A stretch of DNA of 64,000 nucleotides from contig NZ_CP037423.1 of the NCBI RefSeq assembly GCF_007754155.1, positions 4,154,001 through 4,218,000 on the forward strand, written 5' to 3'. The DNA comes from Stieleria neptunia. Lineage in GTDB: Bacteria; Planctomycetota; Planctomycetia; Pirellulales; Pirellulaceae. The position numbers were made by a program, and so were the translations under genes. Positions 963 to 57,605 of the stretch are shown piece after piece. Within the stretch, counting starts at the first letter, position 1; the number at the start of each line of letters is the position of its first letter. The notes under the pieces were generated by a model, which had not been told where the DNA came from, ran no database searches, and worked only from the letters and a program-made list of their open reading frames with translations.

Positions 963-3017
963 TCAGCGTCGCAAACTTGGGGAATGGTAAGACGCGGCGT
1001 CGTCTGGGGAGTCGACGGCTGGGCTGTCGTTTTTCGAACCACCGGACGCAGACCTGGCGGCGCCTGGCAAAACAGCCATCCGGCGGCGTGCTTCGGTCGC
1101 GTACGAACTGTCGGCAAAACGGCCCAGCAGTGCTGAGTAGCAATCTCCGGCCTCGCGTGTCAGCCCCAATTGCTCAAACGACTTGCCGGCTTGCACCAAC
1201 GACGCCGCCACAAAAGGGCCTTCGGGGTCCAGCCCCTCGACCTTGCGGTAGTCGTCGATCGCCTTGGCAAACTGTCGCTGCATCAAGTGGGTTTCGCCGA
1301 TCATCCATTGGGCACGTCCACGCAGCGCCGGTGTGGCGTCGGGGCTGCGAACGACTCGTTCGTAAAGCGATCGCGCGCCGGTCAAGTCGACTTGCCGAAC
1401 CGACAAATCGCCCGCCAACAGATCCACCAACGCAACTTGAACGCCGCTCGACTTAGAGGCTTCATCGCCCAACGCCGTTCTCACACGCTGCAGTCGCCGC
1501 GCGGCTTCGGCGACGTCGGCATGGGCCACCGCGGACTCGGCACAGCGAAGCAGCGTGGCAAAATCGGTCGCGCCGTGATGGTCCACGACATGAGCCCACC
1601 ACTCGGCGGCCTTTGCCCCGCGATCGGTTTGGGTCAGGGCCTCGGCGAACAATCGATCGACGTGCACGCTTCTGCGTTCATCCGCGGTGTTCAAGCCCGT
1701 CGACTCGGCGGCTAGTGCCAGCATCGACCAGCGTCCCGTTCTGCCGGCCCACCGGCAAGCCGACTCGCGAGCCATCCGGGTCGATTCCACCAAGTCGCCG
1801 GAAATCAACGTCGCCGCGATCTGTTCGGCAAACCCAGAGCTTCCCCTCTCCGCGGAATCGTGCAGCAAGACGGCAATCCGTTGACCCGTTTTGTCTTCGG
1901 CGGCCAATCGTTTCAGCAAGACATCAAAGCGTGGCGGTGGAAGTGCGGGGCCGGCAAACAACAACGCTTGGCTGATCAAATCCGCCGACCATTGCTGCGG
2001 TTGCCCCTGCCGGACCACCCAATGCAGGAGGGAATCCCAGAGCGGAGACGTCTGGTCGGGCGGATCCGATGCAAGCGTCTTCAGCACGATCTGGTCGGCG
2101 CTGCGGCTCGATGGCCAACGCTGAAGCAGGTCTGCAATCGCAAGTTCGACCGCTTCGGTGTCGTCGGCCTTCAGCAGACATTGGATTCGCATGGCCGCCG
2201 CGTTGGCGGCGTCGGCGTGCGAGGGATAGGCGTCGATGAATTGCTGCAGTCGCTTTGCAGCGGCCGGCATTCGATCCGGTTGCATCGCGGTGGCCCAACC
2301 CAGACCCAGCATCGCCAACGCGCGATCGCTGCCGACCGCGTCGCTTGCGCCGGTTCGCGCGGTGTAGTCGACGATCCTGCCGTAGAGAGCTTCGGCATCC
2401 CCAGGACGCTGTTGATTCAGTGCCGACCAAGCCGCCCGCATCGCCAGTTTGATCAACGGTTGCAGAGTGTTGGCAGGCGGCGGCGTGGCTTCGGCCAATT
2501 CATCCAACGCCGGAACCAGCACTTTGGCGACCTGATCGTCTTGATGGGTGGCGGCAAAATGATTGGCCGCCGAAGTGCGAATCAACAGACGTTGGGCAAC
2601 CAGATCGGGATCCGGCTTGCGGCGAGCGAGTGAATGGACTGCCTGCAAATACAGATTGTCGATCTGCTTGGCGTCTAACTGTCCCTTCGCCGCGCGGGCC
2701 AACAGCACAAAATCCACGGAAAGATCAGCGTCGGACTGCTCGGCGAGTTCGCAGAGCATTTCGGCGGCCGATTGAAAGTTGCTTTGGTCGCGGGCGGTCC
2801 GGATCTGTTCAATCGTGGGGGGGGCGGATTCGGGGGGAGCCGCGGATGCGTTCGGAGTTGCCGCCAACAGGATCAGGAGTAGTAGCCAGGCAACGGGAAC
2901 CCTCCCCTCGCTTCGCTCGACCTTCCCGCAAAGTGGTCGTGGGATTTCAAAGTCACCCTCCTGGCAGGAGGGTCGAGCGCAGCGAGGGGAGGTCGAACGA
3001 TGAATCGCCACGTTCAC
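963..3017 (-). CDS. Secreted tetratricopeptide-repeat protein
   Basis: This TPR-type helical-repeat protein is probably periplasmic and probably works with the ExbB-like channel encoded 13 bases downstream. The hydrophobic signal core VAWLLLLILLAATPNASA is followed by a mature region rich in Ala-Leu helices. Degenerate TPR units are clearest near the C-terminus, for example at AKAIDDYRKVEGLDPEGPF and GKSFEQLGLTREAGDCYSAL. The start is unclear: no ATG, GTG or TTG lies in frame close to the signal core. The nearest in-frame starts are GTG at 3017 and 3011, and between them and the signal core lie two copies of a genome repeat read as KVERSEGR-type sequence. The open frame continues to 3281, but that extension is repeat-derived and is not supported. 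The native start may have been displaced by repeat insertion. The TPR assignment is good; the exact N-terminus is not. Confidence 0.75.
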   Translation of the reverse strand: MNVAIHRSTSPRCARPSCQEGDFEIPRPLCGKVERSEGRVPVAWLLLLILLAATPNASAAPPESAPPTIEQIRTARDQSNFQSAAEMLCELAEQSDADLSVDFVLLARAAKGQLDAKQIDNLYLQAVHSLARRKPDPDLVAQRLLIRTSAANHFAATHQDDQVAKVLVPALDELAEATPPPANTLQPLIKLAMRAAWSALNQQRPGDAEALYGRIVDYTARTGASDAVGSDRALAMLGLGWATAMQPDRMPAAAKRLQQFIDAYPSHADAANAAAMRIQCLLKADDTEAVELAIADLLQRWPSSRSADQIVLKTLASDPPDQTSPLWDSLLHWVVRQGQPQQWSADLISQALLFAGPALPPPRFDVLLKRLAAEDKTGQRIAVLLHDSAERGSSGFAEQIAATLISGDLVESTRMARESACRWAGRTGRWSMLALAAESTGLNTADERRSVHVDRLFAEALTQTDRGAKAAEWWAHVVDHHGATDFATLLRCAESAVAHADVAEAARRLQRVRTALGDEASKSSGVQVALVDLLAGDLSVRQVDLTGARSLYERVVRSPDATPALRGRAQWMIGETHLMQRQFAKAIDDYRKVEGLDPEGPFVAASLVQAGKSFEQLGLTREAGDCYSALLGRFADSSYATEARRRMAVLPGAARSASGGSKNDSPAVDSPDDAASYHSPSLRR

Positions 3018-3095
3018 TTCAGTGATTTCTGACCCAGTCGGCGCACCAGGGCAAACCCTCTCCTCGCTGCGCTCGACTCTCCCAGGGGGAGAGTG
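2895..3095. repeat. Cluster of TCGAGCGCAGCGAGGGGAGG-type palindromic repeats
   Basis: There are three copies in mixed orientation. An inverted copy lies at about 2900-2932, a direct copy at about 2952-2995 (GTCACCCTCC...GGAGGGTCGAGCG), and a diverged copy at about 3055-3095. The same element occurs inside two glycosyltransferase genes at 54,205-54,249 and 55,960-56,004. Here it covers the 5' end of the TPR gene. Confidence 0.8.
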
Positions 3096-3551
3096 ACCAG
3101 CCCCCTTTCGTTCTGCCGGCTTAAAGCCGCACGCCCTCCCTGCGGGTGGGTGGTTCCTCGCAGGGGTCTGAAGCGTCGACCGCGCATCGCTGGTGATGGC
3201 GAATTGCCGGCGCGCAGCGGACCCACCTGGTCGCATGTCCAGGCATCGTCTTGGTTCGGTTTCGGGGAATTCGCTATGCATTGTTGCCGGTACAATCGGA
3301 ATAATCGGGGTTACCGAATTAGTCTGCCGAGTCGCAAGCCGAATTCGGTCCCCGGCGTCGCTGGATCCCGTGGTTTAGCGGCAAACCAGCTATCCCCGCC
3401 CTGCCGTTTTATCTACTCTTAGGGAGCCATCCGACGCCGTGGCGTAAGCTTCCAGCTTGCGTTTCAGCCTGATCGGCAAGCAGGATGCTTACCCCACTTC
3501 GGCAAGCAGGATGCTTACCCCACCTTCCCGACTTCCTCTCCCTGCTCCCGT
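3018..3551. other. Intergenic region between the TPR gene and smc, repeat-filled
   Basis: These 534 bases separate two divergently transcribed genes and must hold both promoters, but I see no convincing -35/-10 pair. They contain one diverged palindromic repeat (3055-3095), one GTGGCGTAAGCTTCCAGC-type hairpin near 3440-3466, and two tandem copies of GGCAAGCAGGATGCTTACC about 25 bases apart at 3474-3522. The last of these ends only about 30 bases before the smc start. Short ORFs in this stretch look like repeat translations and are not called. Confidence 0.6.
3437..3525. repeat. REP-like hairpin plus two tandem GGCAAGCAGGATGCTTACC units
   Basis: The first unit is GTGGCGTAAGCTTCCAGC followed by TTGCG, a short palindrome with a GTGG head that also occurs at 16,591, 19,772 and three times at 24,463-24,560. 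It is followed by two near-identical direct copies of a related palindrome that carries its GTGG-like end in inverted form (CCCAC). Confidence 0.8.
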
Positions 3552-7148: not shown

Positions 7149-7794
7149 CGGAAGCGGGTTTGGGGAGCTGGGGGCCGCTGTTTTAGGCCCGGAACGCCGC
7201 TGACTGAGGCCAGAAGGGCCGGCAGAGTGCTTGCCGGTGGCGTGAGCCACCGGATCGCGTGCCAACAAAAGTCTTTAGGCCCGGAGGGCCGGCATAGTGT
7301 TTGCCGGTGGCGTGAGCCACCGGAACGCGCGCCAACAAAAGTCTTTAGGCCCGGAGGGCCGGCACAGTGTTTGCCGGTGGCGTGAGCCACCGGAGAGCGT
7401 GCCAACAATCGGCTTTAGGCCCGGAGGGCCGGCAGAGTCATGGTGGCTGCGTCGCGTGGGACTGTGTCGGCCCTCGGGGCCTGCATCCAGCGCGGCACCT
7501 GGCCCCGGTGGCTGACACCACCGGCAGACACTGTTTCAGCCCTCCGGGCCTAGGGACACCGGTGGCTGGGGGAGGTCCATTGCACAAGTGACGGATCCGC
7601 TCGTAGCGCACGGCGCCAAGACTTTTTCAGCGCCGGCCCTCTCTGGCGTTTGCTTGCTGCGCAAACGCCGTCTCTCCCAGAGGGAGAGAATCGAATTGGT
7701 TACCAAATCCCGCAGTAAACGAATCGACGTCCCGGCGTTACCTGCGCAGACCTTGTCAGCCCATTGGCTAGCGGGCCAGGAGAAGAACGCTTCG
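7149..7794. other. Repeat-filled intergenic region after smc
   Basis: These 646 bases separate the convergent ends of smc and the TIGR03009 gene. They hold the 70-bp tandem hairpin array, inverted relatives of it at 7450-7560, and one further palindromic repeat at about 7640-7690 (CTCTCTGGCG...CTCTCCCAGAGGGAGAG). I see no credible gene. Confidence 0.65.
7195..7435. repeat. Tandem array with a 70-bp period, each unit carrying two hairpins
   Basis: GCCGGC of the repeat unit recurs at 7218, 7288, 7358 and 7428, an exact 70-base period. Each unit contains CCGGTGGC-GTGA-GCCACCGG, a perfect 8-bp stem closed by a GNRA-type tetraloop, and GGCCC-GGA-GGGCC, a perfect 5-bp stem. Unit-to-unit differences are few. 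At 7450-7560 related sequences occur in inverted orientation (GGCCCTCGGGGCC; GCCCTCCGGGCCTAGGG). The array lies just 3' of smc. Confidence 0.9.
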
Positions 7795-21056: not shown

Positions 21057-21160
21057 GTCGGACGAATAAGTGGGATAGGCTTCCAGCCTGTCATGGCGAA
21101 AACGACAGGCTGGAAGCCTATCCCACAATCAATCCCCGCCACTTATTCTTCCGACGGCCG
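21057..21160. repeat. MITE-like palindromic element, copy 1
   Basis: Inner arms GTGGGATAGGCTTCCAGCC.. and ..GGCTGGAAGCCTATCCCAC surround a short loop. Outer arms are CGGACGAATAAGTGG and CCACTTATTCTTCCG. Copies occur at 29,761, 50,455 (inner arms only) and 56,499. Confidence 0.85.
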
Positions 21161-29760: not shown

Positions 29761-29863
29761 AACGCACGGAAAATAAGTGGGATAGGCTTCCAGCCTGTCG
29801 ACGCTGGAATGACAGGCTGGAAGCCTATCCCACTCGCTAGATCCGACACTTAGTTTCCGTTCG
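29761..29863. repeat. MITE-like palindromic element, copy 2
   Basis: Inner arms are GTGGGATAGGCTTCCAGCC and GGCTGGAAGCCTATCCCAC, and outer arms are CGGAAAATAAGTG and CACTTAGTTTCCG. It starts right after the stop codon of the FeeM-like gene. Confidence 0.85.
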
Positions 29864-50304: not shown

Positions 50305-50454
50305 ACCCCGTACCATTTCGCATGTCCGTTTGCTGACCACCCCGTCTTTGGTCAATCACTTTTCTCCCGCATCGACCTAAGTACAACCATGCGGTCCCAA
50401 TCTCAGCACGACGCGTCAGCCAGTGACGCGACCCAAAAACCAATCTCGCAAAAC

Positions 50455-50516
50455 GTGGGATAGGCTTCCAGCCTGTCGATGCTGAAAACGAATGACAGGC
50501 TGGAAGCCAATCCCAC
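50455..50516. repeat. MITE-like palindrome, inner arms only
   Basis: GTGGGATAGGCTTCCAGCC and GGCTGGAAGCCAATCCCAC are inverted arms with one mismatch around a 24-base loop. The AATAAGTG outer arms of the other copies are absent. A REP-like ACGCGTCAGCCAGTGACGCG lies at about 50410. Confidence 0.85.
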
Positions 50517-50549
50517 GTCGCACCATCAACTCTCCCAAACCCCACTATC

Positions 50550-51719: not shown

Positions 51720-52160
51720 AACAATGGCAGAAAAATCAGGGGCAGGAAAATGTTGCGTCGTCACTTCACGCATGTGGGTTGCGCGGAGAAGGCGACAAGA
51801 AAATGGATGACAAGAAAATCGGTCAAGGCAGTTCGATGATGTAGGTGATGCGGCAACACAATCGGTCGGTTGTCGCTCTCCAATCGTCTTGGCAACCTCC
51901 GCGACGAAGCGCCACCCCAATCCTCCCCAAATCATTTTCTTGTCACCCATTTTCCTGTCTTTCTCCCCTCCACCCCACCCCATTTTTCTGCCCTCCATTT
52001 TTCTGCCATCCCCAGCACCACGCACCCCGGCACGCCGCGTCAGCCAGTGGCGCGTGACAACCTGAACCCCACCCGCCGCTCGCTCACGCGTCCCGCTGAT
52101 ATCCCCACCCATCATTCTGCCCCGTATCGTTCTGCCATCCTGCCCCCATCGTTTTGCCAC
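51720..52160. repeat. Purine-rich then pyrimidine-rich arrays (GGCAGAAAAATG / CATTTTTCTGCC)
   Basis: GGCAGAAAAATC, GGCAGGAAAATG, GACAAGAAAATGGATGACAA at 51723-51815 are answered by CATTTTCTTGTC, CATTTTCCTGTC, CATTTTTCTGCC and CATCGTTTTGCC at about 51935-52160. The two halves are inverted relatives and could pair. A REP-like GCGTCAGCCAGTGGCGCGTG lies between at 52038-52057. Confidence 0.85.
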
Positions 52161-52167
52161 TCTCCCC

Positions 52168-52725
52168 ATGCCCGTCCGCACGACACCCACGCTAACGACT
52201 GCCGAGCAACTTTTCGGCATGGTCACTGACGGGTACCGCTACGAGCTCGTCGCAGGAGAATTACGGATGATGTCACCTGCCGGCGGCCGTCACGGCCGAA
52301 TCGCGATCCGCTTGGCTCATCTGCTGATGCAGCATGTCGACGCGAACGATTTGGGAGTCGTTTATGCAGCCGAGACCGGCTTCCGGATTGAAACCGATCC
52401 CGACACCGTCCTCGCCCCCGATGCCGCGTTCGTCAGCAAAGCACGTCACGCAACCATCAAAAACGAAATCGCGTACTTACCGCTCGCTCCCGATTTGGCC
52501 GTCGAAGTCCTCTCACCGAGCGACCGATTTTCGCGAGTCGAATCCAAAGCCTTCCAGTGGCTCGACGCCGGCACGAACTTGGTCCTCCTGGTCGATCCAG
52601 AAACCCAAACGATTCACCGCTACCCTTCCCGCAAGCAAATCGAAGTCTACCAGCTTGACGAAACCCTCGACTGCAGCCCCGCCGTTCCCGAATGGACCCT
52701 CAGCATCAAAGACGTCTTCCGATAA
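52168..52725 (+). CDS. Uma2 family (DUF820) putative endonuclease, copy 1
   Basis: This 185-aa protein of the Uma2/DUF820 family has a PD-(D/E)xK nuclease-like fold. The family is abundant in cyanobacteria and planctomycetes and its role is unknown. Visible core elements are YRYELVAGELRMMSPAGGRH, RIAIRLAHLLMQHV, AAETGFRIETDPDTVLAPDA, LAPDLAVEVLSPSDRFSRVE and SKAFQWLDAGTNLVLLVDPE. The D-x(n)-E-x-L-S core (LAPDLAVEVLSPSD) and the following Lys match the nuclease motif. ATG 52168 lies directly after a CATCGTTTTGCC repeat unit. A second Uma2 gene follows 74 bases downstream. Neither has an obvious place in polysaccharide synthesis. Confidence 0.92.
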   Translation: MPVRTTPTLTTAEQLFGMVTDGYRYELVAGELRMMSPAGGRHGRIAIRLAHLLMQHVDANDLGVVYAAETGFRIETDPDTVLAPDAAFVSKARHATIKNEIAYLPLAPDLAVEVLSPSDRFSRVESKAFQWLDAGTNLVLLVDPETQTIHRYPSRKQIEVYQLDETLDCSPAVPEWTLSIKDVFR

Positions 52726-52799
52726 CACTGCCTTCATCGTCTTGCCCCCATCGTTTTGCCACTCCTATTCATTAGCCAATAGCTCTCCGTCCCATCCCC

Positions 52800-53336
52800 A
52801 TGTCGCAACCCAGTTCCCTTCCCCACTACACCTACGGCGACTACTGCCAATGGCAGGGCGACTGGGAATTGCATCAAGGGATTCCGATTGCGATGACGCC
52901 GTCGCCCTTCGGTCGGCACCAAGTGCTGGTCACCCGTCTCGCCTGGTTGATTCAATCCGATATCGAAGCAAACAGCTGTGATTGCCAAGCCATCGTGGAT
53001 TTGGACTGGGTCGTCAGCGATGACACCGTCGTTCGCCCCGACCTGCTGGTCGTCTGCGGAGAGATCCCCGATCGGCATCTCCAATCATTGCCCTCATTAG
53101 TCATCGAAGTCCTCTCGCCGTCCACCCGAACCAACGATCTTGGATACAAACGAGAACTCTACCAGCGCGAACAAGTCCCCCACTACTTGATCGTCGACAC
53201 CGAGAAAAGCTCCGTGACACAGATGGCACTCCAAGACGGCCACTACATATCCCACACCATTGAAACCGCAACCCTGACCGTGAACCTAGCAGACGATTGC
53301 ACCATCACCGTCGACCTGCAAAAGCTATTCCGTTAG
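52800..53336 (+). CDS. Uma2 family (DUF820) putative endonuclease, copy 2
   Basis: This 178-aa protein is of the same family as the gene upstream but clearly diverged, so it is not a recent duplicate. The core elements are YCQWQGDWELHQGIPIAMTP, HQVLVTRLAWLIQSDI, DLDWVVSDDTVVRPDLLVVC, PSLVIEVLSPSTRTNDLGYK and REQVPHYLIVDTEK. VRPDLLVV and VIEVLSPST carry the presumed active-site acids, and the Lys in LGYKRELY completes the motif. The start ATG 52800 follows a short spacer containing CATCGTCTTGCC and CATCGTTTTGCC units. The stop is followed at once by another pyrimidine-rich array that reaches the glycosyltransferase start. Confidence 0.92.
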   Translation: MSQPSSLPHYTYGDYCQWQGDWELHQGIPIAMTPSPFGRHQVLVTRLAWLIQSDIEANSCDCQAIVDLDWVVSDDTVVRPDLLVVCGEIPDRHLQSLPSLVIEVLSPSTRTNDLGYKRELYQREQVPHYLIVDTEKSSVTQMALQDGHYISHTIETATLTVNLADDCTITVDLQKLFR

Positions 53337-53420
53337 CTGCCCCTAATCTTCCCCGAATCATTTTCCCACCTCCATTTTTCTGCCCCCCATTTTTCTGCCA
53401 TCCCTGTCTCCATCGTCTTG
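53337..53420 (+). repeat. Pyrimidine-rich array that includes the start codon of the next gene
   Basis: CATTTTCCCACC, CATTTTTCTGCC twice and CATCGTCTTGCC follow one another. The TTG in the last unit (53418-53420) is the first usable start codon of the glycosyltransferase. Confidence 0.8.
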
Positions 53421-54809
53421 CCCGCCTCCACCACCGTCAACGCTCCCATCACCAAGCCCGCCAGCACCGCGCGCCGCAAACGCGTCCTGCTGCTGACCCA
53501 TCGGTTCCCCTACCCGCCCAATCGTGGCGACCGGATCCGATCCTACAACCTGATGCGTGTGCTGGCCGAATCCTTTGACGTCACGCTGGCCTGCCCGCAC
53601 GACGAACCGGTCTCCGATGCGGAACTCCAACACGTCCAACAAATCTGCCAAACCGTCATCACGGCACCGGTCGGCAAGACCCGTTGGCTGCGAGCGGGCG
53701 GCTCCCTGCTCGGCGGCCACAGCCTCACCGAAGGCCTGTTCCACAGTCCGACCATCACCGATCAAGTCCTCGCCTCCCAGCAAACTCAACCGTTCGACGC
53801 CGCGTTGGTGTTCTGCAGCAGCATGTTCCCCTACGTGGAACACGACGCTTTCCGCGACACACCGATGATCGTCGATCTGGTCGACGTCGACAGCGAGAAA
53901 TGGCGCCAACTCTCGGTCGAGCGCACGGGCCCGAAGAGCTGGATCTATTCCATCGAATCCAAACGCGTCCGCGACCTCGAACACCGCATCGCCGAGAAAG
54001 CCGACGCCATCACACTCGTCAGCGACCAAGAAGCCAACCTGTTCAAATCCACGATCCCCACCACCACCCCCGTCCACGGCGTCTCCAACGGAGTCAACAC
54101 CGACTACTTCCGCCCGCCATCCCAGCGGGACGCGTCAGCGACCGGCGCGTCCAATCCATCCCAGCGGGACGCGTCAGCGACTGGCTCGTCATCCCAATTA
54201 CAAAGTCACCCTCCCTTGCAGGGAGGGTCGAGCGAAGCGAGGGGAGGGTCTTCTTCAACGAGCCACTTGCTCTTCACCGGTGTCCTCGACTACCCGCCCA
54301 ACGTCACCGGCCTGGTCTGGTTCTGCACCAAGATCCTCCCCTCCCTCCGCCAACGCCTCCCCGTCCAGCTCACCATCGTCGGCCGCCGGCCCAACCAAGC
54401 CGTCCAAGATCTCGCGTCCTTCGACGGCGTCACGCTTGTCGGTGAAGTTCCCGACGTCCGCCCGTACCTGCACGCCGCCGACATCGCGATCAGTCCCCTC
54501 AAACTCGCCCGCGGCATCCAAAACAAAGTTCTCGAAGCGATGGCTTGCGGCTTGCCAGTGATCACCACCACTGAATCCGCCGAAGGCATCGACGCGATCG
54601 ACGGCAGCGAATTCATCATCGCCGACGACGAAGCGGCTTGGGCTGACGCGATTTGCGATCTCGCCAGCGACCCCCAGCGCCGCACGTCAATCGGCAACGC
54701 CGCGAGAGACCTGGTCGTCAACCACTACGCCTGGTCAGCAAGAATGCAACAAATCACAGAGCTCATTCAGAAAGCGGTTGGCAGCCGTAGGTCATGCTGT
54801 GCATCATGA
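53418..54809 (+). CDS. Glycosyltransferase, PEP-CTERM/exosortase-associated type (TIGR03087-like), with in-frame repeat insert
   Basis: This GT-B glycosyltransferase of 463 aa resembles the family that accompanies exosortase loci. The N-terminal domain begins RKRVLLLTHRFPYPPNRGDR and IRSYNLMRVLAESFDVTLAC. DLVDVDSEKWRQLSVERTGP and LVSDQEANLFKS follow, and it ends at VHGVSNGVNTDYFRP. The C-terminal domain starts LLFTGVLDYPPNVTGLVWFC and has PYLHAADIAISPLKLARGIQ, NKVLEAMACGLPVITTTESA. Between the domains, about residues 233-279 are coded by repeats (PSQRDASATGAS twice, then SHPPLQGGSSEARGG). The start TTG lies in a CATCGTCTTGCC unit. The stop lies in a GTAG-headed REP-like unit, which codes the last residues RRSCCAS. 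Repeats have therefore altered start, linker and end. Confidence 0.88.
   Translation: MPASTTVNAPITKPASTARRKRVLLLTHRFPYPPNRGDRIRSYNLMRVLAESFDVTLACPHDEPVSDAELQHVQQICQTVITAPVGKTRWLRAGGSLLGGHSLTEGLFHSPTITDQVLASQQTQPFDAALVFCSSMFPYVEHDAFRDTPMIVDLVDVDSEKWRQLSVERTGPKSWIYSIESKRVRDLEHRIAEKADAITLVSDQEANLFKSTIPTTTPVHGVSNGVNTDYFRPPSQRDASATGASNPSQRDASATGSSSQLQSHPPLQGGSSEARGGSSSTSHLLFTGVLDYPPNVTGLVWFCTKILPSLRQRLPVQLTIVGRRPNQAVQDLASFDGVTLVGEVPDVRPYLHAADIAISPLKLARGIQNKVLEAMACGLPVITTTESAEGIDAIDGSEFIIADDEAAWADAICDLASDPQRRTSIGNAARDLVVNHYAWSARMQQITELIQKAVGSRRSCCAS
54117..54255 (+). repeat. In-frame composite repeat inside a glycosyltransferase gene
   Basis: Two copies of CATCCCAGCGGGACGCGTCA, 39 bases apart, are followed by AGTCACCCTCCCTTGCAGGG and GAGGGTCGAGCGAAGCGAGG. 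The frame stays open throughout. The same composite in the same frame lies in the next glycosyltransferase at 55,908-56,006. Confidence 0.92.
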
Positions 54810-55080
54810 AACGAGTTGATTGGGGGGAGATGGCAGAAAAATGATGGGCAGAAAAATGGGGTGGGGAAAAGGAAGACAGGAAAATGGGTGACAAGAAAAT
54901 GGTGTGGAGCAAAGTAGGTGATGCTGTGCATCACATCTTCTCTAATCTTCCTACCCCATAATCTTCCTACCATTTTCTGACCACCCAATGTTTTGACCAA
55001 CATCCATCTGTCCCCACCCCATCATTCTGCCCCGAATCATTCTGCCTTCCCCTCTTCATCGTTTTGCCCCCATCGTCTTG
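54788..55080. repeat. REP units and purine/pyrimidine-rich arrays
   Basis: A GTAGGTCATGCTGTGCATCA unit at about 54790 is followed by GGCAGAAAAATGATGGGCAG and GACAGGAAAATGGGTGACAA. A GTAGGTGATGCTGTGCATCA unit lies at about 54921, then CATCATTCTGCC, CATCGTTTTGCC and CATCGTCTTGCC units. The TTG of the last (55078) is a possible start of the next gene. Confidence 0.85.
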
Positions 55081-56499
55081 CCCCACTCTACCTTGAACCA
55101 CCCACCCCATCCCCCCATCCGCGTCGCATTCGTTATGCACAAGATGCAAGTGGCGGGCGCGGAAGTTCTGGTTAAACAGATCATCGAGCGGTTGGGCGAC
55201 CAGATCGAGGCAACGATTTTCTGTCTGGACGACGTCGGCGAACTCGGGTACCAGCTACGCGATCAAGGCGTTCCCGTCATCGTGCTGGATCGGAAGCCCG
55301 GCTTCGACGCGAAGGTCCCCCAGCGGATGGCCGGCGAAATCCGTGATCGCGGCATCCAAATCCTGCACGCCCATCAATACACTCCGTTTTTCTACTCCGC
55401 GCTCGCACGGCTGCGTCACCGTGCCAAGGCGAAAATCCTGTTCACCGAACACGGGCGTCACTACCCCGACGTGATCTCCTGGAAACGTCACATCGCCAAC
55501 CGCTGGTTGCTGAACCGCTACGCCGACATCACCACGGCCTGCTGCGACTTCAGTACCAAGGCACTCCGCGAGATCGAAGGATTCCCGGACGCCTTCACGT
55601 TGGCCAACGGAGTCGACCTCGCCGAACTGCCACCGCGAGGCAACGAATCGGAACGCAACGCACTCCGCCAAACACTCGGGCTCGATCCCGACCGTCCCTA
55701 CGCCGCCTGCATCGCACGGTTCCACATCGTCAAAGACCACGCGACGTTGATTCGAGCCTGGGCGCGGGTCCACCAAAAACTCCCCGAAGCCCAACTACTC
55801 CTCGTCGGCGACGGAGAAGAACGCCAAAACATCGAAACCCTAATCGACGACCTCCAACGCGCTGGTGTCCAGGCTTTAGCCGCCACCCCCGACCGCAACG
55901 CGACCACTCCACCCCAGCGGGAAGCGTCAGCGAGCGGCGCGTCACCCCAATCCCCCAAAAGTCACCCTCCCTTGCAGGGAGGGTCGAGCGCAGCGAGGGG
56001 AGGGTTAGGCGTGCAAGTCTCGAGTCCTGAGTCGCGAGTCGTGAGCCAGGAATCCGGCAACGCTTTGCTCAACGGTGACAACTCAACTCAAGACTCACCA
56101 CTCACGACTCACCTCTCTGAAAGCATCCGCTTCCTCGGCATCCGCGACGACGTCGGCGACATCCTCCGCGCGGTCGACGTGTTCACCCTGACCAGCGTCA
56201 GCGAAGCGGCCTCACTGACCCTGCTCGAAGCGATGGCCAGCGAGTGCCCCAGCGTGGTCACCGATGTCGGCGGCAATTCCGAACACCTGCGACAAGGCAT
56301 CGACGGCTACCTGGTCCCCCGAGCCGACGACACCGCCCTCGCCGGCCGACTGCTCGAACTCCTCAACGATCCGTCGTTGGCCCACCAATTCGGCCAATCC
56401 GCCCGCCAGCAAGTCCAACAACACTTCAACCTCTCGGGCGCCGTCGACAAGTACCACGAGCTGTACCAACAACTGGCATGTGTAGCTGTTAGCTGTTAG
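55078..56499 (+). CDS. Glycosyltransferase family 4 protein with in-frame repeat insert
   Basis: This 473-aa GT-B enzyme belongs to family 4. The N-terminal domain has IRVAFVMHKMQVAGAEVLVK, ILHAHQYTPFFYSALARLRH and LFTEHGRHYPDVISWKRHIA, and ends near TLANGVDLAELPPRGN. The C-terminal domain has YAACIARFHIVKDHATLIRA, AQLLLVGDGEERQNIETLID, IRFLGIRDDVGDILRAVDVF and TSVSEAASLTLLEAMASECP, with the donor-binding E-x7-E region. Between LQRAGVQALAAT and IRFLG, about 70 residues (277-346) are repeat-derived, including PPQREASASGAS and SHPPLQGGSSAARGG. Family members have only a short loop here. No ATG is in place: TTG 55078 lies in a CATCGTCTTGCC repeat unit, and TTG 55093 is an alternative. The last residues arise from a TAGCTGTTAGC repeat. 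Confidence 0.88.
   Translation: MPHSTLNHPPHPPIRVAFVMHKMQVAGAEVLVKQIIERLGDQIEATIFCLDDVGELGYQLRDQGVPVIVLDRKPGFDAKVPQRMAGEIRDRGIQILHAHQYTPFFYSALARLRHRAKAKILFTEHGRHYPDVISWKRHIANRWLLNRYADITTACCDFSTKALREIEGFPDAFTLANGVDLAELPPRGNESERNALRQTLGLDPDRPYAACIARFHIVKDHATLIRAWARVHQKLPEAQLLLVGDGEERQNIETLIDDLQRAGVQALAATPDRNATTPPQREASASGASPQSPKSHPPLQGGSSAARGGLGVQVSSPESRVVSQESGNALLNGDNSTQDSPLTTHLSESIRFLGIRDDVGDILRAVDVFTLTSVSEAASLTLLEAMASECPSVVTDVGGNSEHLRQGIDGYLVPRADDTALAGRLLELLNDPSLAHQFGQSARQQVQQHFNLSGAVDKYHELYQQLACVAVSC
55908..56115 (+). repeat. In-frame composite repeat inside a second glycosyltransferase gene
   Basis: CCCCAGCGGGAAGCGTCAGC and AGTCACCCTCCCTTGCAGGG, GAGGGTCGAGCGCAGCGAGG occur in the same order and reading frame as at 54,117. 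A further degenerate GAGTC-rich segment follows to about 56115 (GAGTCGCGAGTCGTGAG and CACTCACGACTCAC, inverted relatives). Confidence 0.9.
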
Positions 56500-56711
56500 C
56501 AACGAACGGCAAATAAGTGGGATAGGCTTCCAGCCTGTCGATGCTGAGATGACAGGCTGGAAGCCTATCCCACTTTGAGAGATCCGGCACTTATATTCGG
56601 CTCGTTGCTGAGCTGTTAGCACCCCATCATTCTGCCCCGTATCATTCTGCCATCCTGCCTTTTTCCACCCTGCCTTCATCGTCTTGCCCCCATCGTTTTG
56701 CCAACTCCCCG
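56491..56711. repeat. MITE-like palindrome, copy 4, with flanking AGCTGTTAGC, then a pyrimidine-rich array
   Basis: The palindrome spans 56499-56608 with terminal GCAACGA/TCGTTGC, outer AAATAAGTG/CACTTAT and inner GTGGGATAGGCTTCCAGCC arms. AGCTGTTAGC stands directly at both sides (56491-56500 and 56611-56620). CATCATTCTGCC, TATCATTCTGCC, CATCGTCTTGCC and CATCGTTTTGCC follow up to the next gene. Confidence 0.88.
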
Positions 56712-57380
56712 GTGACCACCCTCCTGAAAACAACCGTCCAAACCATCGCCATCGCGATCATCTCACCGCTGCTGCTCACCCACCTGCTCCTCTCCGTCAC
56801 CTCCTCCGCCGACAGCTCCCTCGAAACCCATTCCCAATTCCTCTCCCTGATCCCCGGCAAACTCGGCAGCTACCTCCGTGTGGCCTTTTACCGTTTTGCG
56901 CTCGACCACTGTGATCCCACCGCGACCATCTGTTTCGGCGTGTTGTTCTCGAAAACCGGTGCCCGGCTCCACCAAAACGTCTACATCGGCCCGCGTTGCA
57001 TGATCGGTCTGGCCACACTCGACGACGACGTCCTACTCGGCCCGGCCGTGCAAATCCCCAGCGGTCCACAATCCCACGGCATCAGCCGGCTCGACGTCCC
57101 CATCCGCGATCAATCCGGAACGCTCCAGCGAATCAGCATCGGCCGCGACAGTTGGATCGGCGGCGGATCGTTCGTGTTGGCCGACGTCGCCGAGCAGTGC
57201 GTCGTCGGAGCCGGCAGCATCGTGACCAAACCGACCCAGCCACAGACCATTTCTGTCGGAAACCCCGCGCGACCGGTAGGCAAGCGGGGAGAACCGAGTA
57301 CTGTCTCGGCTAGTGACACCGCGGGGGCAACTGCCACCCAAGTGGACGAAGTCCGCGCGGATGGAACGCTGGTCAGTTGA
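56712..57380 (+). CDS. Hexapeptide-repeat (left-handed beta-helix) acyltransferase
   Basis: This 222-aa acetyltransferase-like protein probably O-acetylates a sugar of the exported polymer. An N-terminal hydrophobic segment (TIAIAIISPLLLTHLLLSV, about residues 11-29) may bind the membrane. The beta-helix coils are seen in ATICFGVLFSKTGARLHQNV, YIGPRCMIGLATLDDDVLLG, RISIGRDSWIGGGSFVLADV and AEQCVVGAGSIVTKPTQPQT. The SHG of QSHGISRLDVP is in the position of the catalytic His loop. The closing VGNPARPVGKR is typical. The GTG start 56712 follows a CATCGTTTTGCC unit. The last 15 residues (TQVDEVRADGTLVS) are coded by CACCCAAGTGGACGAAGTCC, a repeat also found at 51,633, so the C-terminus has probably been extended by it. 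Confidence 0.88.
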   Translation: MTTLLKTTVQTIAIAIISPLLLTHLLLSVTSSADSSLETHSQFLSLIPGKLGSYLRVAFYRFALDHCDPTATICFGVLFSKTGARLHQNVYIGPRCMIGLATLDDDVLLGPAVQIPSGPQSHGISRLDVPIRDQSGTLQRISIGRDSWIGGGSFVLADVAEQCVVGAGSIVTKPTQPQTISVGNPARPVGKRGEPSTVSASDTAGATATQVDEVRADGTLVS

Positions 57381-57387
57381 GACGGGA

Positions 57388-57575
57388 GATGGCAGGAAAA
57401 TGATGGGAAGAAAAATGACCTGCAAAGCGATTGAAGACAACAGACAAGAAAATGGATGACAAGAAAATGTCCCGACTGAATACGTGTTCGCTATTTTCCT
57501 GTCACCCATTTTCCTGTCTCTAATTCCCCACCCATCTTTCTGCCCACCATTTTTCTGCCACCCCACCCCGGCACC
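57388..57575. repeat. Purine-rich then pyrimidine-rich arrays
   Basis: GGCAGGAAAATGATGGGAAG and GACAAGAAAATGGATGACAA precede CATTTTCCTGTC, CCATCTTTCTGCC and CCATTTTTCTGCC, the same two-sided arrangement as at 51.7-52.1 and 54.8-55.1 kb. Confidence 0.85.
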
Positions 57576-57605
57576 AGCCCCTAAAATCCACTGCCCCACA
57601 TCGCA

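Follow-up and report, generated by a model that had tools for sequence, protein, structure and literature searches.

Short genome repeats lie in frame within variable loops of two adjacent glycosyltransferase genes of Stieleria neptunia

The window analyzed here, a 64,000-nt stretch of the genome of the marine planctomycete Stieleria neptunia, includes two adjoining forward-strand genes for GT-B glycosyltransferases, GT1 and GT2, which probably build exopolysaccharide or surface sugars. GT1 (53418..54809; 463 aa) belongs to the TIGR03087 family of the PEP-CTERM/XrtA system, with 400.7 bits against a curated cut-off of 316.65 (NCBIfam); its TTG start falls, as judged by eye, within an intergenic-type repeat, leaving the precise N terminus uncertain. 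GT2 (55078..56499; 473 aa) is stp2/BshA-like, with domains PF00534 and PF13439, but reaches only 191.5 bits against the TIGR03088 (stp2) cut-off of 409.05, and is therefore classed as a GT-B glycosyltransferase and nothing narrower. AlphaFold models have a mean pLDDT of 90.7 for GT1 and 85.7 for GT2 (a 454-aa form was modelled), and the best PDB matches of both are GT-B enzymes. Within these confident models, the inserts described below have low pLDDT in both enzymes.

GT1 and GT2 have two repeats in common, A of 31 nt and B of 48 nt, in identical order and identical frame, without stops; the preliminary description of this DNA had reported as much, and both the sequence and the ORFs agree with it. 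The GT1 copies lie in the interdomain linker (54111..54272, forward strand), which has 54 codons compared to a median of 20 aa among 105 parsed GT1 homologues, and whose pLDDT block means are 38–56 at residues 241–280. Two copies of A without mismatches (54121..54151, peptide QRDASATGAS, and 54160..54190, peptide QRDASATGSS, 39 nt after the first) are followed by a short form of B (54202..54249, core at 54205) with a TTG variant in its hairpin loop, for a peptide order of PSQRDASATGAS, PSQRDASATGSS, and SHPPLQGGSSEARGG. The A peptide was originally said to occur twice in GT1 and again in GT2; the GT2 counterpart was found, but the second GT1 copy terminates in GSS instead of GAS. In GT2 the repeats are in a loop of the C-terminal domain (55822..56130, forward strand; 103 codons, from GEE to FLGIR), some 85 residues above the median row of its homologue alignment, with pLDDT block means of 31–38 at residues 261–310 of the 454-aa model. 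Here a single A (55913..55943, 1 mismatch, peptide QREASASGAS) precedes the short form of B (55958..56005, core at 55961), again the TTG variant, giving PPQREASASGAS and then SHPPLQGGSSAARGG. A third part of the GT2 insert (56008..56120) contains a 10-bp inverted repeat (GAGTCGTGAG/CTCACGACTC), and no second copy of it was found in the S. neptunia genome. Tryptic peptides expected from the inserts include DASATGASNPSQR and GGSSSTSHLLFTGVLDYPPNVTGLVWFCTK.

These sequences had been taken for an intergenic palindrome family of the window. Within the window they are hardly intergenic: repeat A has five matches at up to 3 mismatches (0.04 expected) and the B core two exact matches (0.06 expected), the A-like copies outside GT1 and GT2 all have 3 mismatches, and among the matches listed (20 of 28 direct families) the only B-like sequence outside the two genes is at ~2898–3097, as one direct copy at 67% and inverted pieces at 86–97%. 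At the genome scale, however, both are repeats, with 55 distinct places for B (up to 2 mismatches) and 53 for A (up to 3 mismatches), more diverged copies being left out. The A copy at 52080 in the window was scored in this census, which covered all 53.

A census of this kind had been proposed to find how many copies are in coding sequences, and few are. A copy was considered coding if each of its flanks had no fewer than 40 open codons and scored positive for coding, with the score trained on 28 open segments, all from the window. Two of 55 B and three of 53 A copies passed, all within GT1 or GT2, and by this 40-codon test none of them is in a third gene. Relaxing the flank to 10 codons raises the number with positive scores on each side to 4 of 55 for B and 8 of 53 for A, a gain of seven places. 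Three of the seven were inspected: one A copy precedes a probable start codon, and two B copies belong to frames 62 and 57 codons long. A match in the genome of a relative (G006, C2:162133; open frame of 283 codons) was rejected as a coding copy: it looks like a repeat-built ORF end, because no more than 10 codons follow the element, on a side with a negative coding score. All five spacings between tandem A copies within the glycosyltransferase genes are multiples of 3 (33, 33, 33, 33, and 39), vs. 2 of 12 outside them.

Among seven orthologues, the content of the GT1 linker is different in every one, with relatives having only A there, one more B, repeats of other kinds, or a 48-nt palindrome. 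S. magnilauensis has A and lacks B; four other genomes (G002, G003, G006, and G011) have neither; and the linker of one homologue (P0004) reads as B alone, in a form with W replacing L. Rhodopirellula sp. SM50 and S. neptunia have the identical B part in their GT1 inserts. Contrary to the first interpretation, the reading frame is not fixed: SM50 GT1 carries an extra B that starts in the GT1 frame and shifts frame past its first arm (in a comparison with MITEs, the longer B unit there measured 141 nt and had terminal inverted repeats of 12 bp), and in SM50 GT2 repeat A is also present inverted and read in that orientation.

Both sites had been proposed as places where GT-B folds tolerate insertions, and the family alignments, author-chosen sets of 86 (GT1) and 82 (GT2) of 120 listed homologues each, bear this out. 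Relatives have short or differently filled sites. For GT1 (86 rows), the standard deviation of interval length is 15.7 in the linker, 6.6 in one other interval, and at most 1.3 in the remainder; for GT2 (82 rows, from which its loop length statistics were also taken), it is 16.7 in the loop, 5.1 in one other interval, and at most 0.2 elsewhere. In pairwise protein alignments with SM50, gaps are confined to the linker in GT1 and found in the loop and close to both termini in GT2. The two loops absorb most of the length change, with the surrounding folds fixed. Purifying selection is acting on both enzymes: comparison of S. neptunia with SM50 gives dN/dS of 0.031/0.219 and 0.031/0.202 for the N- and C-terminal parts of GT1, and 0.020/0.286 and 0.008/0.158 for those of GT2, ratios of 0.05–0.15 outside most of the loops.

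It is likely that two permissive loops have captured repeats that are tolerated and lineage-specific, with frame kept by selection and one composite copied between the genes. The disordered loops of the adjacent glycosyltransferases would be sites that repeatedly acquire short palindromic DNA, some of it supplied by repeat families of the genome itself. Events that shift the frame, make stops, or hit the fold would be purged by purifying selection on the enzymes, leaving tandem duplications and insertions of length 3n, translated as harmless disordered peptide; translation presumably proceeds without excision or bypass, and the peptide itself would be neutral. A single A+B composite may have arisen or landed in one gene and then been copied to its neighbor, by ectopic conversion or local transposition, before S. 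neptunia and SM50 split, in which case both genes would have the same order, frame, and peptide. Some observations sit less well with this account: not everything inserted comes from genome repeats, as seen in the third part of the GT2 insert and in the palindromic G003 and G006 linkers; no transposase could be linked to A or B among eight Y1_Tnp loci; and one further interval per enzyme also varies in length. With filled and short sites both found in relatives, this is a well-bounded case of how intergenic palindromes may become protein, and since length change is concentrated in two loops, tolerance, frame selection, and inter-gene copying become measurable.

The argument for copying draws on sequence features: both genes have the repeats in one order, with spacers that are similar and with B in its TTG variant. 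In the preliminary description the composite itself was a genome repeat. By BLAST of 14 genomes of the genus, however, A and B occur together only in GT1 and GT2 of S. neptunia and SM50 among the matches listed (scoring was limited to 40 candidates per genome in seven genomes, making counts lower bounds). In the S. neptunia genome, the pair is present at one other, looser place. With the composite private to GT1 and GT2 among these matches, the matching order and frame probably do not go back to separate events, and the shared peptide is best explained by a composite common to the neighbors, not by a frame-preferring repeat. In the 14 genomes, there are four occurrences of B in its exact TTG form: in GT1 and GT2 of S. 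neptunia, in SM50 GT1, and at one SM50 locus elsewhere; the B loop of SM50 GT2 reads TTA. Because SM50 holds this further copy, two insertions of a TTG subfamily are a possible alternative to copying. That A and B were inserted independently into both genes, and share a frame by chance, is improbable in our judgment. Both repeats are open in several frames, which by our estimate puts chance frame sharing at about 1/3, and the P0004 linker with B alone could represent a separate entry; but besides the near absence of the composite elsewhere, TTG is present in both glycosyltransferase copies and in none of 51 other B loop entries from the same genome (counted per fetched locus, three of the loci overlapping).

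The GT1 domain boundary also carries palindromes other than A and B. The G006 linker includes a perfect 48-nt palindrome and that of G003 a palindrome whose 22-bp arms are 4 nt apart, in one register over conserved DYFRP codons, with different interiors; GT1 proteins of the species with the 48-nt palindrome are 60–64% identical. Where one arm differs silently (TTT vs. TTC), the other differs correspondingly in its amino acid (GAA vs. GGA, E vs. G). A third such species is suggested by its peptide, the DNA having been seen in two: the P0009 sequence fits a perfect palindrome in the DYFRP register with 24 of 24 pairs, compared to 21 for the best of 300 shuffles. Palindromic DNA or RNA might itself be favored at this boundary, for example as a translational pause, with lineages supplying different sequences. 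The shared register, the P0009 fit, and strong predicted folds in the G006 and G003 linkers (z of −8.4 and −8.7) speak for this, but it is quite improbable: linkers of G002, G004, and G011 lack strong structure (best z of −0.1, −0.8, and −1.7), which rules out a hairpin required in every linker; G002 and G011 fold more strongly elsewhere in the gene (z of −4.3 and −5.8); and none of the five GT2 loops examined has such a palindrome. Only five of 113 homologues tested (P0008, P0009, P0010, P0024, and P0043) reach 23–24 pairs, and the best shuffle is 22 for P0010, P0024, and P0043, while shuffles of P0090 attain 23. Template switching, moreover, could keep arms alike without selection. It is similarly conceivable, though on balance unlikely, that the boundary is a palindrome-renewing site, where arm-to-arm templating at the replication fork rewrites the peptide or a hairpin is selected regardless of sequence. 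Palindromes with different arms in the same register in two species are the most novel part of the case; with them it can be tested directly if the encoded peptide can be overridden by DNA templating or by selection for a hairpin. No full copy of the G003 or G006 palindromic linker was found elsewhere in its own genome, and among 14 genomes the exact pattern of palindrome plus AGAG tail has a single match, which is in G003 GT1, the G006 form being one base off and unmatchable by it. In other lineages, A and B occupy the boundary in place of the 48-nt palindrome.

The capture of tolerated repeats also has to be weighed against a functional peptide, a domesticated linker or localization motif retained in both enzymes. 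The same peptide is found in two neighboring enzymes of two species, its B part unchanged in GT1 and, with W for L, encoded in P0004. A comparison of nucleotide and amino acid constraint, suggested at the outset, gives a mixed picture on few codons: the GT1 insert has a silent excess relative to SM50 (dN 0.039, dS 0.176; 53 codons, flank included), but the GT2 insert has none (0.101/0.116; 34 codons), and comparison of the two inserts gives the opposite (0.160/0.060; 33 codons). Relatives lacking B or both repeats, the other SM50 copies partly out of frame or inverted, and the low pLDDT of the inserts make a function very improbable. Decaying pseudogenes or chance read-throughs, for which it can be said that GC-rich repeats are poor in stops and make long open frames cheap, are hardly credible and were rejected given the dN/dS ratios, family scores, and confident models of these enzymes, and the positive coding scores on both flanks of the inserts.

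As tolerated captures, the glycosyltransferase repeats look like a clear new example of an already known type of event, not a novel type of biology. They may be likened by behavior, with assignment to neither class, to the palindromic elements of Rickettsia (RPE) and to intragenic REPs. According to the available part of one report (PMC2229807), RPE are found between genes and also in frame within conserved protein genes, and a gmk product containing an RPE is both translated and active, its affinity for the substrate being altered. The likeness to RPE drawn in the preliminary description stands, as in-frame genome repeats inside two real enzymes that also occur between genes; here, however, the copies that were scored place the repeats in just two genes, which adjoin, and no other gene shares the composite among the matches listed. 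Intragenic REPs, in the portion available of a 2013 BMC Genomics paper (PMC3733652), are short palindromes tagged by GTAG or CGTC, often grouped or dimeric, that code for tens of residues in ORFs and are suggested to be tolerated in linkers and loops; recB of X. campestris and X. oryzae has different REPs at about the same site, and R. baltica is among species with several coexisting GTAG families. They are already known there from many bacteria, among them O. terrae, a PVC relative. No report of intragenic repeats in planctomycete genes was found in the open-licence PMC literature. Repeats A and B are likewise short and lie inside ORF linkers and loops, and their 53 and 55 genomic copies are nearly all outside coding-like ORFs; they differ in that the stretches examined lack GTAG, and no RAYT-type gene was found beside them, association with Y1_Tnp being rejected at 0 of 8 loci with A or B (up to 4 mismatches, within ~1.5 kb). 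For the G006 palindrome, a parallel is found in Nematomorpha mitochondrial genes, which in the accessible text (PMC6649704) have numerous perfect inverted repeats within coding sequence; it too is perfect and coding, but those are many palindromes in animal mitochondria, and this is a single linker of a single bacterial gene.

Structure prediction gives stems, but the fold of repeat A is no better than that of shuffled sequences (z of −0.33), its terminal CGTC being paired in this weak structure, and that of B is moderately better (z of −1.70). Of five Rfam matches, none reached the gathering score; four are to microRNA families and fall on a hairpin located 3′ of GT2, and the fifth is to a 3′ UTR family.

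The host genome is a single contig of 10,975,817 bases, in which GT1 (53418–54809) and the adjoining GT2 (55078–56499) encode GT-B glycosyltransferases by family profiles and structure matches. Judging by sequence resemblance, the flanking ORFs seem to encode a sugar transferase and a deacetylase of polysaccharides on the upstream side and an acyltransferase on the downstream side; two further ORFs upstream of GT1 (52168–52725 and 52800–53336) are presumably of Uma2/DUF820 type. Repeat A (31 nt; CCCAGCGGGACGCGTCAGCGA plus a tail) is present in two copies in the GT1 linker and one in a C-domain loop of GT2, and in both genes repeat B follows it (48 nt; ACCCTCCC, a loop, GGGAGGGTCGAG, GGGGAGGGT). 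The preliminary description had reported the same repeats in the same order and frame without a stop, and this is borne out: A then B, in a single frame, with zero stops. The TTG starts of GT1 (53411–53423) and GT2 (55047–55083) sit within a CATCGTCTTGCCC-type repeat of the cluster (direct family D10 at GT2, recognized by eye at GT1), so both N termini are uncertain.

The core of both enzymes is constrained, and change is concentrated in the GT1 linker and GT2 loop. Relative to Rhodopirellula sp. SM50, dN/dS is 0.05–0.15 in the four core parts, of which the GT2-N part takes in the first residues of the loop. Among homologues, length varies strongly in the linker and in the loop; each protein has one further interval that varies, in few rows, and the others hardly change. 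The GT1 linker is 53 residues long as parsed, against a median of 20 among the 105 of 120 homologues that could be parsed. AlphaFold mean pLDDT is 90.7 for GT1 and 85.7 for GT2, falling to 31–58 in the 10-residue blocks that span the inserts. Length variation and low pLDDT both support the earlier suggestion that these are insertion-tolerant sites of the GT-B fold.

GT1 linkers were compared in seven orthologues; the seven remaining genomes of the genus offer nothing better for GT1 than a partial match of no more than 38% identity. The linker reads A-A-B in this genome; in SM50 a longer B unit, 141 nt in length and bearing 12-bp terminal inverted repeats, and more sequence precede A-A-B; and S. 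magnilauensis (G004) has A-A and nothing else. In G006 and G003 (Roseiconus lacunae, going by an identical linker peptide) a palindrome is accompanied by GAG/CTC-type sequence; the linker of G011 is long and lacks both A and B, and that of G002 (S. bergensis, likewise by an identical linker peptide) has 17 residues. In the homologue P0004, known as protein sequence, the linker corresponds to B by itself, with W in place of L. The GT2 loop contains A-B and a third part here; a tandem duplication, A-A-A-B and one inverted A, all in frame, in SM50 (locus L219); and is short in G002, G003, and G011. Tandem A copies (no more than 60 nt apart; 17 distinct pairs in all) are spaced by 33, 33, 33, 33, and 39 nt inside GT genes, and by 28 (seven times), 29, 30, 32, 36, and 38 nt outside them. 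Given 7 multiples of three among the 17, the chance of five out of five in the genes is 0.003 by hand calculation, which exaggerates the support because the copies in the genes share some of their descent. About eight of the 12 outside pairs were scored for coding (L045, L048, and one L043 pair were unscored) and none passed, including an ambiguous frame at L046 with scores of 0.00 and −0.08 over 33 and 377 codons.

This genome has three matches to the A-gap-B pattern, one in GT1, one in GT2, and a third at a looser site. In a BLAST search of 14 genus genomes with the composite, A and B are together, among the matches listed, only at GT1 and GT2 here and in SM50 (G009). The other matches are B-like: at least 43–52 in each of G000, G004, G005, G006, G008, and G009, nine in G007, and 0–2 in each of the remaining seven. 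B in its exact TTG form, a hairpin-loop variant, has four occurrences in the 14 genomes: GT1 and GT2 here, GT1 of SM50, and one further SM50 locus. Counted per fetched locus (three of which overlap), the B loop in this genome is TGGCA at 43 loci, TTGCA at two (both GT copies), and of other forms in eight entries. Since the composite is private to GT1 and GT2 in the genomes searched, and both GT copies here have the TTG form, their shared order, frame, and peptide most likely stem from one composite passed between neighbors; this transfer, we infer, preceded the split of this species from SM50.

Genome-wide there are 55 copies of B (up to two mismatches) and 53 of A (up to three). When a frame must stay open for 40 or more codons on either side and score positive for coding on both, two of the 55 B places and three of the 53 A places pass, all in GT1 and GT2; at this threshold the coding reading proposed earlier holds for the GT copies and for none beyond them. 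At 10 codons, four B and eight A places pass. Three of the seven extra places were inspected: two are B copies in short frames of 62 and 57 codons, and the third is an A copy at genome position 6,877,984 (L135). This A copy lies 5′ of a likely start codon followed by a signal-like N terminus, in a leader that is in frame with this signal-peptide-type gene. Open segments 300 codons or longer, taken without overlap, span 49,911 of the 64,000 window bases, so random insertion would place most copies inside them; A and B seem to be excluded from genes. In a wider set of 42 further loci (most of them from relatives, and some either overlapping or belonging to this genome) with 39 B copies at up to four mismatches, those coding-positive on both sides of one frame are again the GT copies. 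The SM50 GT1 copy is a borderline positive (0.01 and 0.29), since repeat sequence also makes up its upstream flank.

A second palindrome is found at the GT1 domain boundary, where a 48-base site takes in the DYF codons and reaches into the linker. It is perfect in G006 (L051), with 24-bp arms, and has 22-bp arms and a 4-nt gap over the same bases in G003 (L052). The two resemble each other only over their outer 12 bp, where the sole difference is mirrored in both arms. A perfect palindrome in that register could code for the P0009 peptide (24 of 24 pairs; best of 300 shuffles, 21), which makes this third species compatible with the palindrome by a reading from peptide to presumed DNA. Among 113 homologues only P0008, P0009, P0010, P0024, and P0043 reach 23 or 24 pairs; at this site the last three have one common peptide, which gives up to 22 pairs when shuffled, and a further protein, P0090, gives up to 23 under shuffling. 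P0008, P0009, and P0010 are mutually 60–64% identical. Fold prediction found no strong structure in the GT1 linkers of G002, G004, and G011, which rules out a hairpin being needed in every GT1 linker.

Intragenic REPs (PMC3733652) and RPEs (PMC2229807) are the proper comparison for the GT inserts, and the likeness first drawn to Rickettsia palindromic elements seems apt. No RAYT association of A and B, as expected of GTAG REPs, was found: neither repeat, at up to 4 mismatches, lies within about 1.5 kb of any of eight Y1_Tnp loci. As for a REP tag, the A and B stretches inspected contain no GTAG, and A ends in a CGTC that pairs in a weak predicted fold. The suggestion that the phenomenon is not known to be described in planctomycetes stands in part: no report of planctomycete genes with such inserts was seen in the open-licence literature searched, but the list of intragenic REPs that accompanies PMC3733652 may hold R. 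baltica cases.

Other repeats are present in the window. CATTTTTCTGCC and CATCATTCTGCCCC repeats (direct families D1, D2, and D10) fill many intergenic gaps of the GT cluster (51910–57596). A hairpin repeat (GTGGGATAGGCTTCCAGCCTGTC), its arms roughly 24–25 bp long, occurs at 21068–21126, 29775–29834, 50452–50518, and 56515–56575, and a 92-nt repeat with many GCC palindromes (family D4) is found in three copies, at 70-nt spacing, at 7207–7438.
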